Of a stretch of DNA of 49,636 nt, positions 14,717 through 49,636 are shown in pieces. The stretch covers positions 1 to 49,636 of the forward strand of contig JADFSS010000010.1 of assembly GCA_022560655.1 (NCBI GenBank), read 5' to 3'. How positions within the stretch are numbered: the first letter of the stretch is position 1; each line of letters opens with the position of its first letter. Both the position numbers and the translations under genes were made by a program. Below the pieces are notes generated by a model. That model had not been told where the DNA came from. It searched no databases and was given only the letters and a program-made list of their open reading frames with translations. Origin of the DNA: Candidatus Neomarinimicrobiota bacterium. GTDB taxonomy: Bacteria; Fidelibacterota; Marinisomatia; SCGC-AAA003-L08; TS1B11.

Positions 14717-15944
14717 TCCTCTCAAAACCGAGCTCAGGCACCGGGCCAGCCGCTAACATGAGATCGGCCGCAATTGCATCAGCCAGCATCAGGCCGCGAG
14801 CAGTCAACGCCAGCCGGTCACCGGAGAGCACCAGCTGGCCCTCATAACGCTCCAGCTGGGCCTGAAAGCGGGTGACAAAATCTCGTGGCTCGCTGTAGCC
14901 GAGATCCTCTGTCACCGATAACCCCTCTGACAACCGCAGCCCAAAGGCCAGCCGCTCGTTGTGCAGCTGCCGCTCACTGAGCTGCTCACCTCCGGCCACG
15001 GAAGACCGCCCCGCCTCAACCGCCTCCATATAGCCATCCAGGCTACGGATGTTCCAGGTGCGGCGGCTGCCGTCGAAGCCGTGGGCCGACGGACCCAGGC
15101 CCAGGTAGGGTTCGATGCGCCAGTAGTGCAGATTATGGCGGCAGGTCCGATCGCCCCGGGCGTAATTGCTGACTTCATAGGCCTTGTAGCCCTGCCGCGG
15201 GAGATAATCACGCACCCAACTGAACATGCTCACGTCCGTGTCCTCGGGAGGCATGGTGACCTCACCCGCCGCTACCCAATCATGTAAGGGGGTGCCGGTC
15301 TCAACGGTGAGCGAATAGGCGGAAATGTGCTCCGGTTCCAAGTTTGCCAGGGTTTTTAGATCTGCCTGCCAACGGCTCAGCGATTGGCCGGGGATGTTAA
15401 ACATGAGGTCGGCATTGATGTTCTCAAAACCAGCCCGACGCGCGGCTTCGAAGGTGTCGATGCAGGCCTGGGGACCGTGGAGTCGCCCCAAAAACTGCAA
15501 CAGAGCGGTGTCAAACGACTGAAAGCCCATGGACAGGCGGTTCACGCCCAGACTTCTGAAATCGCGGAGCTTATCCTCAGGTGCCTCGCCGGGGTTCGCC
15601 TCCAGTGTGAACTCCTCAACGTTGTCCAGCCCGATAGCAGTTTGAAGGGCGGTCAATATCTGTTCCAAATGCGCAGGCGACAGCAAACTGGGAGTACCTC
15701 CGCCAATGAACAGGGTGTCAAAGCGCAAGTCCAGCCCCGAACCACGCACGCTCCGAATTTCATTTACGAGACAATTGACCAGGCGATCCATGGCCTCATC
15801 CCGATCGGCGAGGGAGTAAAAATCGCAGTAGGGGCATTTCACCTTGCAAAAGGGTATGTGGATGTAGATACCGGCGCTGGGCACAGGATTCGCAACTGGG
15901 TTGTTGTCCCCCTGCCGGGGTAGGTCAGGGCGTGGTGCAGACAA
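14694..15944 (-). CDS. hemW: Radical SAM heme chaperone HemW (HemN-like)
   Basis: A 416-residue radical SAM protein. YIHIPFCKVKCPYCDFYS carries the CxxxCxxC iron-sulfur motif, and the extra Cys of true HemN is replaced by Phe (CDFYS), which marks HemW. FIGGGTPSLL, LEANPGEAPEDKL and MGFQSFDTALLQFLGR are family blocks, and the C-terminal HemN-type domain is present. HemW binds heme and is thought to deliver it to respiratory enzymes rather than oxidise coproporphyrinogen. The start is TTG at 15944 with a GAGGAG site 7 nt upstream. A genuine hemN is in the heme operon at 41252, so both proteins are present. Confidence 0.9.
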   Translation of the reverse strand: MSAPRPDLPRQGDNNPVANPVPSAGIYIHIPFCKVKCPYCDFYSLADRDEAMDRLVNCLVNEIRSVRGSGLDLRFDTLFIGGGTPSLLSPAHLEQILTALQTAIGLDNVEEFTLEANPGEAPEDKLRDFRSLGVNRLSMGFQSFDTALLQFLGRLHGPQACIDTFEAARRAGFENINADLMFNIPGQSLSRWQADLKTLANLEPEHISAYSLTVETGTPLHDWVAAGEVTMPPEDTDVSMFSWVRDYLPRQGYKAYEVSNYARGDRTCRHNLHYWRIEPYLGLGPSAHGFDGSRRTWNIRSLDGYMEAVEAGRSSVAGGEQLSERQLHNERLAFGLRLSEGLSVTEDLGYSEPRDFVTRFQAQLERYEGQLVLSGDRLALTARGLMLADAIAADLMLAAGPVPELGFERIRVRAGS

Positions 15945-15951
15945 TCAGCCA

Positions 15952-15957
15952 CTCCTC
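15952..15957 (-). promoter_or_regulatory. Ribosome binding site for hemW (TTG start)
   Basis: GAGGAG on the minus strand, 7 nt before the TTG at 15944. It supports the rare start codon over the internal GTG at 15884, which has no such site at the right distance. Confidence 0.6.
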
Positions 15958-16110
15958 GACGTCCAGGACAAATCTCGCCACCCTCCACGAACGCCCTGAG
16001 GCGCGCCCCATAACAGGGGCAGTCATGCTTTCCACTCCGGTACTACCACCGCAGCGGGACACGCAACGGGGCTCCACTGTGCTGTGAGTGCCAGGGCTAA
16101 TGAAAGCTGT

Positions 16111-16138
16111 TTGCCAAGCTCATGAACTGTCATCTAAA
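16111..16138 (+). promoter_or_regulatory. Possible sigma-70-type promoter for the structured RNA region
   Basis: TTGCCA at 16111-16116 and TCTAAA at 16133-16138, spaced by 16 nt, give 5/6 and 4/6 matches to the -35 and -10 consensus. Transcription would begin just before the first hairpin at 16143. This is weak on its own; its place ahead of a hairpin series and a terminator is the reason to list it. Confidence 0.3.
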
Positions 16139-16142
16139 CTGT

Positions 16143-16367
16143 CCGGCCTACGACTGTTGGCCGGCAATTTACGGGAACATTTTCCTGTCGTCGGTCTTTT
16201 AAATCTCAGAGACTGTTTGTTCTTGGAGGGTCTCTGAGAGTTGTGACTTCAGTCTCAAATTCCTCCCAGGATGCTCTTCCGGTAGAGGGAGTGTCCTTCC
16301 TGCACTGGCACAATCTACCGAGGCTGTACGAGGCAGTGATTGCCCAATCGCTGCCTCGTCTTTTTTT
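16143..16367 (+). ncRNA. Candidate structured small RNA in a 504-nt gene-free gap, unclassified
   Basis: No credible gene lies between hemW and the SSS symporter gene (15945-16448). Within it, successive inverted repeats can be read: 16143-16148 with 16159-16164 (6 bp), 16171-16177 with 16182-16188 (7 bp, one G-U), 16204-16213 with 16230-16239 (10 bp, perfect), 16280-16286 with 16314-16320 (7 bp, enclosing an AGTG/CACT stem), and the terminator at 16328-16367. Both neighbouring genes are on the minus strand, so the plus-strand terminator does not serve them. I could not match it to tmRNA, RNase P, SRP or 6S RNA by their signature motifs. It could also be the remnant of a lost gene. Confidence 0.4.
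16328..16367 (+). terminator. Strong Rho-independent terminator, plus strand
   Basis: A 14-bp stem (16328-16341 with 16346-16359, one G-U pair), GCCC loop, then seven T residues at 16361-16367. The T run is only on the plus-strand side, so it ends a rightward transcript even though no rightward gene lies nearby. Confidence 0.85.
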
Positions 16368-16448
16368 CTTCAGGTTTCCATCGTTTCAGGATACGTGGAG
16401 GGGCCCTTCGAAGTGATGACCCGACTGTCCGTGGCCGCCCGCTCCTAC

Positions 16449-17873
16449 CTAACGACTCACTCTCCGCCCCATAACCAGCACCAGGGCCAGGGTCACCAGC
16501 AGCCCGGGAAGCATGGGCTGCAGACCCAGGGGATATGTGTCCCCAGCCCACGCTGCCCCTAGGGTCGGGGTCAGCAACCAGGCGCCTGCGGTGAGCACAC
16601 CAGCCAGGCTGATGGTCAACGTGGCCCCGTCGGACAAAACGAGGCGGGGGTGAAACGTGACCAGCACCGGTAGCAGCAGGCCTGGCACCAACACCATGCC
16701 AAGCGTGTACCACAGCGAGACGACTGAGGGGATGCTCACGGCCAAGGTAAAGCCCAATACAGCGCTGGCTATAATACCCCAGCGAATCCTCTGACGCTCG
16801 TCTGCCAGACCGTTGCCGGTGCGGGGGACAAAGTCGCGTCCCAGGGTGGTGGCGCCGATGAAAGTGAATGAATCGATGGTGCTCATGATAACCGCCAGCA
16901 AGGCAACCATGAATATTCCCAACAGCCCTGGGGGTAGTACGGCGGCGGCCAAGAGCGGGTAGGCAGCCACCGGTCCGCCTGCATCGGCGGCCAGCTCAGG
17001 GAGCAGAACAACGGCATAGAGCCCCGCAGCGGTGGTGAGCAGATCAAAGGCGAACCAGAAACCAACGCTGATGAGGATGCCCCTGGCTGCCGTGCGGCCA
17101 GTGTCAGCGGCCACGCAGCGCTGGTAAATACCGGGGTCCACAAATGTCCAGCTGCCGATGAGAAACCAGACGAGGATCGTCTGCCAGCTGAGCATGCCCG
17201 CTCCGCGCCAGTGCTGGTGGCCCGCCGGGAGCTGCGCCCACATCGCTTCGAGTGGCTGATGTGCTATCAGCACACCCACCAGCACCGCAAAGCCGGTGAA
17301 CATGAGGGCAAACTGGAGTACATCGGTTCGCACCACCGACTGAAAGCCGCCCCGCCAGAGGTAAACCGTGCTAAACACCGTCCCCAGCAGAATGGCCAGC
17401 CAGAGCGGAATCCCCAGCAGCTGGCTGAGCATAACCCCCAGCATCAACAGGTAAGGCGCGGGGGTGGTGAGGGCAAAGACGAGGACTGCACCCAGCCGGG
17501 CCGAGCGCGGGCCGTAATGGACACCGAAGCGTTCCGGGATGGTGAGAGCCGATTCCCTGTGGACGCAGCGTGCCATGAAGAGGGCGTAGAGCACGGCAAA
17601 CAGATAGTAAGGCACACCGAAGATGAGCAGATTCACCAGACCGTAAGCGTAGGTGAACTCCCCCACACCCAATATGCCGCCGTACCAAGTGGTCACCAGC
17701 GTAGCCACGAAGGGCACCAGCGTGAGGCGTCGTCCGCCCAGCAGGTAGCGCCGCAGGCGAACCTCCGGTGACGCGCGGTGGCGCAGTCCCAGGTACAGCA
17801 GCCCAGCCAAATACAGGCCGATAATCCCCACATCAAGGGGAGCTAGTTGAATGGGCGCCCAGGGCGAGGTCAT
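16449..17873 (-). CDS. Sodium:solute symporter (SSS) family transporter
   Basis: A 474-residue integral membrane protein with about 12-13 hydrophobic helices and SSS-family blocks: an N-terminal GLRHRASPEVRLRRYLLGGR segment, TWYGGILGVGEFTYAYG, LWRGGFQSVVRTDVLQF, GSWTFVDPGIYQRCVAA, and VALLAVIMSTIDSFTFIGAT with the serine-rich sodium-site helix. It would import a small solute with sodium. The substrate cannot be read from the sequence. It starts 13 nt after the stop of thiN, so the two are probably co-transcribed and a thiamine-related substrate is worth testing. Confidence 0.88.
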   Translation of the reverse strand: MTSPWAPIQLAPLDVGIIGLYLAGLLYLGLRHRASPEVRLRRYLLGGRRLTLVPFVATLVTTWYGGILGVGEFTYAYGLVNLLIFGVPYYLFAVLYALFMARCVHRESALTIPERFGVHYGPRSARLGAVLVFALTTPAPYLLMLGVMLSQLLGIPLWLAILLGTVFSTVYLWRGGFQSVVRTDVLQFALMFTGFAVLVGVLIAHQPLEAMWAQLPAGHQHWRGAGMLSWQTILVWFLIGSWTFVDPGIYQRCVAADTGRTAARGILISVGFWFAFDLLTTAAGLYAVVLLPELAADAGGPVAAYPLLAAAVLPPGLLGIFMVALLAVIMSTIDSFTFIGATTLGRDFVPRTGNGLADERQRIRWGIIASAVLGFTLAVSIPSVVSLWYTLGMVLVPGLLLPVLVTFHPRLVLSDGATLTISLAGVLTAGAWLLTPTLGAAWAGDTYPLGLQPMLPGLLVTLALVLVMGRRVSR

Positions 17874-28799: not shown

Positions 28800-29621
28800 T
28801 TACCGGAAGAGCGATAAGACCAGCTGGGGTGCCGCATTAGCCTGGGCGAATGAGGCGAACGCCGTTTGCTGGACAATCTGAGCGCGGATCAAATCCATCT
28901 GCTCCTGCGCGAAGTCCGCATCTTCGATCCGGCTTCGCGTCGCTTCGTTGTTGGTTATCGCTACACCCAAGGTAGTCTCCTTGGAGTCCAGTCGGATCAT
29001 GAACTCGCCAACGTCCTGTGCCACGCCGTTAAGCGTATCGATGGCAGCATCAATAAGACTGATAGCCGTTGAAGCGGCAGCTGCATCCGACACCGCCAGT
29101 GCGTTAATCGACAGCGCGGCCGAATCGGCATCTTCGAGGGCGACATTAAACACGTCACCCGCCGAAGGGCCCGTCTGGAAGACGGCGGAGCTGAAGGATC
29201 CATCCACCAGTTTGGTGCCCTGGAACTCGGTTTCGCCGACGATGTCGTCGATTTCTGCGATCAAGGCATCAATCTGCTGCTGAATGGCGGATTTTTGGGT
29301 GGCGTTGAAGCTATCGTCAGCTGCCTGCACCGCCTTCTCCTTGATGATCTGGAGCAGGTCGGCGATGGCCAGGTAGGCGCCCTCCGCGATGGAGAGTACA
29401 CTCTTGGCAGTACCCACGTTCGCTAGCGCTTGCGTAAGTCCCCGTACGCGCGACTCGATGGAACGAGCCAGCGAGAAACCGGCCGGATCGTCGCCCACGC
29501 TGTTGATGCGCTTGCCTGTCGACAGGCGCAGCAAACCTTGTGCAACGCGCTTGTTGACAGAAAGCAACGCATTGAATGAATTCAACGCGGCTATGTTAGC
29601 GTTAATTCGGGTGAAACTCAT
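28800..29621 (-). CDS. fliC: Flagellin
   Basis: The filament subunit, 273 residues, so essentially the D0/D1 core with only a short variable middle (about residues 140-195). The N-terminus (RINANIAALNSFNALLSVNK, GLLRLSTGKRINSVGDDPAG) and C-terminus (ATRSRIEDADFAQEQMDLIR, QTAFASFAQANAAPQLVLSLF) are typical. It is a monocistronic unit with its own sigma-28 promoter at 29735-29761, a strong AAGGAGG ribosome site and a terminator at 28738-28769. The divergent neighbours on the plus strand are two glycosyltransferase-like genes, so the filament may be glycosylated; the core is rich in Ser and Thr. Confidence 0.97.
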   Translation of the reverse strand: MSFTRINANIAALNSFNALLSVNKRVAQGLLRLSTGKRINSVGDDPAGFSLARSIESRVRGLTQALANVGTAKSVLSIAEGAYLAIADLLQIIKEKAVQAADDSFNATQKSAIQQQIDALIAEIDDIVGETEFQGTKLVDGSFSSAVFQTGPSAGDVFNVALEDADSAALSINALAVSDAAAASTAISLIDAAIDTLNGVAQDVGEFMIRLDSKETTLGVAITNNEATRSRIEDADFAQEQMDLIRAQIVQQTAFASFAQANAAPQLVLSLFR

Positions 29622-47283: not shown

Positions 47284-47985
47284 TTATCCTAGCCACAGCT
47301 GCCTATCCAGGCTCCGGTACTGGATCGCCTCCGCCAGGTGGGACGTCTGGATGCCGTCGCTCCCGGCCAGGTCGGCGATGGTGCGCGAGACCTTGATGAT
47401 GCGGTCGTAGGCCCGGGCCGAAAGGCCCAGCCGGGTTATGGCCGACGTAAGGAGTTCCTCGCCCTCGGTCGGCAGGGGGCAGAATCGGCGCAGGGCCTTG
47501 CTGCCCATGTGGGCGTTGGCAAATATGCGGCTTTCGCCCTCGAAGCGGCGGCGTTGACGTTCCCGGGCCGCCTCCACCCGCTCACGGATCGCCTCCGACT
47601 GCTCCCCATCCTGCTTCTGGGCCAGTTCCTCCACCTTCACCGCGGGCACCTCAATGTGAATGTCGATGCGGTCCAGCAGGGGGCCGGAGATGCGGCTCAT
47701 GTAGCGCTGGATGGCGGTCTGTGAGCAGCTGCAGGTATTGCGGGGGTCGGTGGCATAGCCGCAGGGACAGGGGTTCATGGCCGCCACCAGCATGACGTTG
47801 GCTGGATAGGTAACCGATACCCTGGCCCGGGCGATGGTCACCTCGCCCGCCTCCAGCGGCTGCCTGAGCACCTCCAGTACGCTCTTGCTGAACTCGGGCA
47901 GCTCGTCCAGGAACAGCACGCCGTGGTGGGCCAGACTCACCTCTCCGGGCCGGGGCACGGAACCGCCGCCGATGAGTCCCGCGTC
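47284..47985 (-). pseudogene. comM: C-terminal remnant of ComM/YifB AAA+ ATPase, disrupted by an inserted element
   Basis: About 233 residues equal to the second half of ComM (Mg-chelatase-like, helicase activity in natural transformation). It starts at [19 protein letters not shown] and keeps the Walker B segment [11 protein letters not shown], the sensor/MNPCPCG region, [14 protein letters not shown] and the C-terminal Mg_chelatase_C domain ([21 protein letters not shown]). The N-terminal half, with the Lon-like domain and the Walker A P-loop, is missing; upstream of Asp (47985) the frame continues as serine recombinase instead. A full ComM is around 500 residues, so this piece cannot bind ATP alone. 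The missing half should lie beyond the inserted element, outside the window. Confidence 0.9.
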
Positions 47986-48003
47986 TACGGCTCTGTTGTA
48001 ATT
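47977..48003. other. Probable attachment-site junction of the inserted element in comM
   Basis: On the minus strand, ComM identity begins at GAC-GCG-GGA-CTC-ATC (47985 downward), while the codons just before it (SNYNRAV) have no counterpart in ComM, where HHTIS would be expected. Base composition changes here: by hand count, 48421-48480 has 21 G/C of 60 against 38 of 60 at 47041-47100. The exact crossover cannot be set without the other end. Confidence 0.6.
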
Positions 48004-49636
48004 GGACACTTCAATGCCTGTATATTTTTGCTTGGAGCCTTCCTGCTCGAAGAGAGGTATCGCGCCTCTTACCTCGATGGAGTGACCCTTACCTTCATGG
48101 TAATCAACAATGATTTTGTCAATCACAAGATGCAAGAGCTCATACTTCTCCTGATCCGACAGATGGTCAATCCTCTCACTAAGCTGGCGTGACCATGACT
48201 CAATCTCCGAAAGATTCTCCTCTATGTTGACTCTTTGCTGTTGTTTCTGTTCAAGCTTTGCAGTCTCACCCTCTATCACATGGATTTCATCTTTTACCTT
48301 TCTAACCTGCTTATCCAACTCCTGAACAGAAAGAATCTGTGATTTCCCATACAGATCTAAGATCCGATATAATTCCCTTTCTCTCTCTGCTTTGAGACTA
48401 GTGAGTCTTTCAATCTCATCTTCCAATATTATCTCATCAGCAAAGTATTCAGATTGCTGTTGAATAATTGCCTGCTTGAGTTTTTCTGAGTTTGATAAGA
48501 GTTCGCGAACAATATTCCAGACCAGAAGATTCAAACGATCAAGGTGGATATTCTTCAGCCCACAGAACCTGGGTTCAGGATCGGGCCTTTTGCTCAAGCA
48601 ACAATATACTCTCATACCTCTTGATGGTCTAATCCACCCATACAGCCTCCTACCGCAACTTCGGCAAAAAAGCAAGCCTCTCAGTAGGTAGAAATGTTTG
48701 ATGTTTCTCGTCGAACTATTATAGTTTGAGCGCAGTTGTTTTTGTACAGTCTCCCATTTTTCTCTTCCAATTAGGTGCGGAACTCTAATTGTGTGGTCCA
48801 AATATCTCATCTCACCCTTGTAGATTGGATTCTTAAGTATTCCGTACACGGTACCTGGTTTCCATTTCAGGTCCTTCGTTTTCCTCATCACAAATTCACT
48901 TCTACCCTTAACAGCAACCTTAATCTCCTTCTTGTATATCTTCGATCCTTTTGTTGGTATTCCGAGGGCATTTAACCTGAGTGCTATATCCCTCGTACTA
49001 AGTCCTTGCAGGCACCATTCGACCATCTGCTCGAATACCTTGGCTTCATCTTCATCAGGGACAAGGATCTTGTCCCTTGCCCTGTCATCGGGATCTCTAA
49101 TCGCAGCGTAACCATATGGTAGAATGCCACCTCTCCATTTCCCTTTGAGAACACCCTCTAAACGAGCTCGCTTGCTCCTCCTCACCCTAATCCGATTCTC
49201 TCTCTTTGCCAACAGTCCAAGCAGGTCAGAGATAAAGTCATCCTCATCGTCTTCAAAATCAAAAACCTGATTTTGAGTGACAACCTTAACTTGGTTATCT
49301 TGTAATACCTTTTTAATAAATGATAATGTTGCCGGGTTTCGTGCTAATCTGTCGATCTCTGTAACGAAGACTCTTTGAATATTTCCTTCCTCTATTGAAT
49401 CGAGCATTCGAACAAGAGCCGGCCTGTGGGCTATCCCTTCAGGCTCAGCAGATATACCAGCATCCTCAAAGACCTCATGGGTCCAACCCTTACTCTGCGT
49501 CAACTCCATGCCAGTCTTCTTCTGTGCTTCCAGGGAGAGGCCTTTATTTACCTGCTTCTCCGACGAGACACGGACCTAAATTGCGCAGCGCATGAATCCC
49601 TCCTATGAGTCTTCCAGAACAACCGGGAACACGGGA
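47986..49636 (-). mobile_element. One end of an integrated element carrying a serine recombinase (extends past the window)
   Basis: Everything from the comM junction to the right edge is AT-richer than the rest of the window and holds only the recombinase and its 5' flank. Large serine recombinases are usually coded at the edge of the phage, ICE or cassette element they mobilise, so the cargo should lie to the right. No terminal inverted repeats are visible at this end, as expected for serine-integrase elements. Confidence 0.75.
49598..49604 (-). promoter_or_regulatory. Ribosome binding site of the recombinase
   Basis: AGGAGGG on the minus strand, 4 nt before ATG 49593. This strong site shows that 49593, upstream of the in-frame TAG, was the original start, and not Met 49509. 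Confidence 0.75.

Follow-up and report, generated by a model that had tools for sequence, protein, structure and literature searches.

A 106-nt element located between hemW and a sodium:solute symporter (SSS) gene in an uncultured bacterium of the phylum Fidelibacterota, formerly Marinimicrobia, almost certainly represents a real, new and family-specific RNA gene on the + strand. The window, i.e. the whole stretch of 49,636 nt that was analysed, is one contig of a 2.33-Mb genome (95% complete). The element covers positions 16261–16366 and was found in 11/11 genomes of the window's family with 66–120 bits. Comparison among homologues establishes the RNA element together with its strand, the stem S1, the terminator hairpin and a conserved upstream box (Table 1). 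This well-supported RNA gene, which no RNA library contains, is shared by an entire family of an uncultured phylum; a literature search found no small-RNA study for Fidelibacterota. Its locus, fold, strand and promoter box are defined well enough to be put to the test.

Table 1 Features of the RNA locus, in window coordinates
Feature	Positions	Strand	Observation
−35-like box GGGAACATTTT, ECF/sigma-E-like	16173–16183	+	[GA]GGAAC in 12/12 homologues
−10-like box CTTTTAA	16196–16202	+	AT-rich, ~17 nt after GGGAAC
Variable 5′ leader, holds part of the 10-bp stem	16209–16261	+	mean pairwise identity 0.27
CCTCCC, anti-Shine–Dalgarno-like, single-stranded, candidate seed	16262–16267	+	CCUCC in 11/12 homologues
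Stem S1, 9 bp	16269–16277 with 16288–16296	+	both-side changes in 8/9 pairs; 99.1% of cells paired
GGTAGA in the S1 loop, putative 5′ arm of pseudoknot stem S2	16281–16286	+	invariant 12/12
Loop L3, crosses S1, ends in conserved TGGCACAA	16297–16313	+	GGCACA invariant 12/12
TCTACC, putative 3′ arm of S2	16314–16319	+	invariant 12/12; complementary to 16281–16286
Intrinsic terminator: 14-bp hairpin (16328–16359), C, seven T (16361–16367)	16328–16367	+	terminator scan

Distribution and genomic setting

A covariance model (R1) was built from 12 homologues, and a second model, R2, describes the core only; of the 11 family genomes, one (G010) holds two copies and each of the others a single locus. 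R1 scored 90–120 bits in 11/11 family genomes and gave no convincing match in 160 other genomes of the class, nor in 234 others of the phylum. Since R1 was built from genomes that are themselves among these 11, the informative observations are the absence elsewhere and the result of blastn. When the whole gap was compared with 100 relatives, the significant blastn matches lay in genomes of the same family, and almost all were confined to the last quarter (about 16250–16373); the tenth family genome came up with E = 0.2 and was confirmed at a later stage. Within the family R2 never scored below 66 bits, versus at most 22.5 bits outside (order and phylum searched), which leaves a clean gap. Within the intergenic stretch, conservation is restricted to 16261–16367 and the short upstream box at 16173–16202. 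In line with the preliminary description, which had recognised no known RNA family, the Rfam covariance search gave no match at cut-off for the element; up to E = 10, chance-level matches and a weak match to Aar were the only hits. Viral contigs contained no match to the element. An occurrence in other phyla was considered and rejected, as the seven pattern matches all lack S1 and are as many as chance would give.

The gap between hemW (start at 15944) and SSS (stop at 16449) measures 504 nt, and both genes run leftward, as had been described. SSS is convergent with the RNA, and the rightward terminator thus serves no gene there. In 12/12 loci the RNA adjoins hemW in divergent orientation, with a methyltransferase gene between them in some relatives; on its other side lies SSS or a different gene, varying among genomes. 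On the − strand of the window, positions 15935–16081 hold a broken methyltransferase remnant, i.e. a truncated N-terminal part with an internal stop. In the relatives L009 and L062 an intact copy of this gene separates hemW from the RNA. The earlier picture of a 504-nt gene-free gap is therefore correct in length, but because of the methyltransferase remnant the gap is not wholly gene-free by origin. On a single contig of G010 the hemW–RNA–SSS block is present twice, as diverged copies each with its own hemW and SSS (L062 and L065), reflecting either a duplication or a chimeric assembly. Elsewhere in the window (47284–49509, − strand) a 741-aa open frame combines a serine-recombinase-like N-terminal half with a ComM/Mg-chelatase-like C-terminal half, both identified by eye; it is possibly a recombinase inserted in comM.

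Fold, strand and coding capacity

The + strand of 16140–16370 folds with −92.7 kcal/mol (z = −5.4 versus dinucleotide shuffles, 0/200 as good), compared with z = −3.5 for the − strand. In the terminator hairpin both sides have changed in 9/14 pairs, and 96.4% of cells are paired. For S1 and the terminator hairpin taken together, alignment A2 reveals both-side changes in 17 of 23 pairs with 97.1% of cells paired overall, and these compensatory changes, a search for which in relatives had been proposed as a check, exceed those in every one of 500 shuffles and in every slid control. RNAalifold independently returned the same two helices. The five successive stems seen in the single sequence are only partly retained among the homologues: the terminator hairpin is conserved whereas conservation is lacking in the first two (before 16190), and the conserved fold appears to consist of a pseudoknot and the terminator. 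The 10-bp perfect stem noted earlier is present (16204–16213 with 16230–16239), as are the 14-bp terminator hairpin and its seven T; several homologues have only a weak U tail.

The compensatory changes also bear on a mainly local role, according to which a conserved + strand RNA would matter through the effect of its transcription on the divergent hemW or methyltransferase gene or on the convergent SSS. The fixed neighbourhood in all genomes speaks for such a role. However, local transcription effects need no compensatory change of internal stems, and the genes between the RNA and SSS vary among genomes; we regard this explanation as improbable.

In the homologue alignment, the paired cells contain 35 G–U versus 2 A–C combinations; counted by pair position, the ratio is 15 to 2 (binomial P ≈ 0.001). 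An RNA made from the − strand would give the reverse, and the + strand is thus the functional RNA. This result weighs against placing a hemW leader RNA or regulatory element on the − strand, a reading for which the position of hemW beside the element in 12/12 loci may be adduced. Together with the + orientation of the terminator and T run, and with the methyltransferase gene that intervenes before hemW in some relatives, it renders such a leader scarcely credible. A protein-coding reading was rejected, too: each of the six frames is interrupted by stops in three or more homologues, and these stops and 1-nt indels indicate that no conserved protein is encoded. In summary, the preliminary proposal, according to which a structured non-coding RNA runs rightward and stops at the terminator, is supported by the compensatory changes, the G–U test, family-wide conservation and the absence from Rfam.

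GGUAGA in the loop of S1 and UCUACC, 27 nt after it, are both invariant (12/12). Their complementarity and invariance, rather than covariation, imply a putative H-type pseudoknot across S1 with the loops L1 (UCC), L2 (G) and L3 (17 nt, in the window ending in UGGCACAA). As S2 never varies, covariation is silent on this stem. Small riboswitches of the pseudoknot type are exemplified by preQ1 and SAM-II, and a pseudoknot with an invariant L3 right before a terminator resembles such elements. The RNA could accordingly be viewed as a ligand aptamer in which the pseudoknot binds a metabolite and controls terminator read-through. We consider this very unlikely, as no + strand gene follows downstream (SSS being convergent), no Rfam riboswitch was matched, and the alignment-based fold gave no conserved pairing shared by terminator hairpin and core.

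The main rival to a small RNA acting by base pairing is a stand-alone structured RNA that binds a protein, be it a sigma factor, RNA polymerase or a ribosomal or other RNA-binding protein, in the manner of 6S or CsrB; the invariant GGUAGAG/GGCACAAUCUACC would then be the protein site. It would agree with the location of the most conserved letters, which are found in the pseudoknot and L3 and not in an extended free seed, and with the single locus carried by each genome except G010, which has two. Conversely, alignment A2 contains no repeated GGA loop motifs of the CsrA-binding kind, and a separate 6S-like RNA exists in the genome (40 bits, below cut-off). Taken together, protein binding as the main function seems rather unlikely. 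The 6S-like element (L026, G000:C3:42012–42194) scores 40.1 bits, just under the Rfam cut-off of 46.4, and is probably a divergent 6S RNA of Fidelibacterota; it is the genome's only 6S-like match, and the window itself gave no match to 6S RNA (RF00013).

Upstream box and predicted transcript

The sequence 5′ of the core is unalignable (identity 0.22–0.27) except for an island, [GA]GGAAC, that is found 63–89 nt upstream of CCUCC in 12/12 homologues. It is usually followed by W-TTT(T) and, about 17 nt on, by an AT-rich box. A GGAAC-type −35 element with an AT-rich −10 element is a form of ECF-sigma promoter (sigma-E consensus), and we infer that the upstream box resembles the promoters used by ECF (stress-type) sigma factors. 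The genome encodes at least six ECF sigma factors. The joint pattern GGGAACWTTTN13-15TTTAA has six occurrences in the 11 genomes, all in front of the RNA. The shorter GGGAACWTTTT shows no genome-wide enrichment (32 versus 42 for the control), and the ECF genes themselves display no clear matching promoter; thus, no regulon backs the sigma assignment.

Transcription would start around 16209, ~6–8 nt after the −10 box, and the predicted transcript probably spans about 16209–16367. The preliminary description had located promoter-like sequence at 16111–16140 and anticipated a transcript of ~220 nt. A sigma-70-like site with 9/12 matches does exist at this position (by chance, 0.3 such sites would be expected in 1.3 kb), but it is not conserved. 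Conservation points instead to the ECF-type box at 16173–16202 as the promoter-like signal, and the transcript is therefore probably ~160 nt long rather than ~220 nt.

Candidate seed and comparison with known small RNAs

CCUCC(C) is strictly placed just 5′ of S1; the homologue L014 has CCCCA instead of CCUCC. The match with (A)CCUCC(C), the anti-Shine–Dalgarno sequence of 16S rRNA, suggests pairing with ribosome binding sites. On this basis we tentatively propose a stand-alone small RNA of ~160 nt with an ECF-type promoter, a pseudoknot and a CCUCC seed that would repress mRNAs. Stress sensed by an ECF sigma factor would lead to rightward transcription from the ECF-sigma-type promoter (−35 GGGAAC at 16173, −10 at 16196) up to the hairpin at 16328–16367. 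The H-type pseudoknot would stabilise the RNA and keep CCUCC(C) single-stranded and presented, and the seed would pair in trans with the Shine–Dalgarno regions of selected mRNAs and thereby repress their translation. Predicted without the pseudoknot, the accessibility of CCUCC ranges from 0.14 (window) to 0.98 among the homologues.

With starts chosen mechanically, Shine–Dalgarno sequences were seen in only 10/36 window genes. A seed-duplex scan of 35 window start regions had flagellin (AAGGAGGUAAUAAUG) as its strongest hit at −12.1 kcal/mol, a lead only, as the scan comes without statistics. The flagellin gene (28800–29621, − strand) carries an unusually strong Shine–Dalgarno sequence, most window genes having none at the mechanically chosen starts. 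A search with PF17209 found no Hfq in the 95% complete genome, and control genomes gave matches; the locus offers an example of a candidate regulatory RNA with a putative pseudoknot in a genome that yielded no Hfq. A bolder version, which we judge doubtful at best, has the RNA mimicking the 3′ tail of 16S rRNA (ACCUCC) and, under a stress sigma factor and without Hfq, repressing, as a class, the minority of genes that depend on a strong Shine–Dalgarno sequence, e.g. flagellin.

Among known systems, MicA and RybB are sigma-E-dependent small RNAs with a GGAAC-type −35 box before the gene. A −35-like box of this type precedes the present RNA, which has no sequence relation to them. The weak match to Aar (RF02375; 29.6 bits versus a 60-bit cut-off) concerns chiefly the terminator hairpin. 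The aligned part begins within the promoter box, and a 59-nt stretch that holds much of the conserved core stays unaligned; identity with Aar was rejected.

RydC of Escherichia and Salmonella combines an H-type pseudoknot with an exposed 5′ seed and a 3′ terminator (PMC4337610). The RNA described here has a candidate seed beside a putative pseudoknot of S1, backed by covariation, and S2, complementary and invariant, with a terminator at the 3′ end. Its leader is longer, however, and Rfam searches gave no RydC match; moreover, RydC needs Hfq in vivo whereas no Hfq was found in the present genome. With alpha-r14 and NfeR1 of Rhizobiales it has in common a conserved C-rich CCUCC anti-Shine–Dalgarno motif outside stems. 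In the alpha-r14 RNAs, each of the three hairpins exposes an unpaired CCUCCUCCC (PMC10746234); here a single CCUCCC segment lies outside the stems beside a putative pseudoknot, a different fold that sets the RNA apart from this family. By analogy, it would work like RydC or the alpha-r14 RNAs, yet it belongs to neither.
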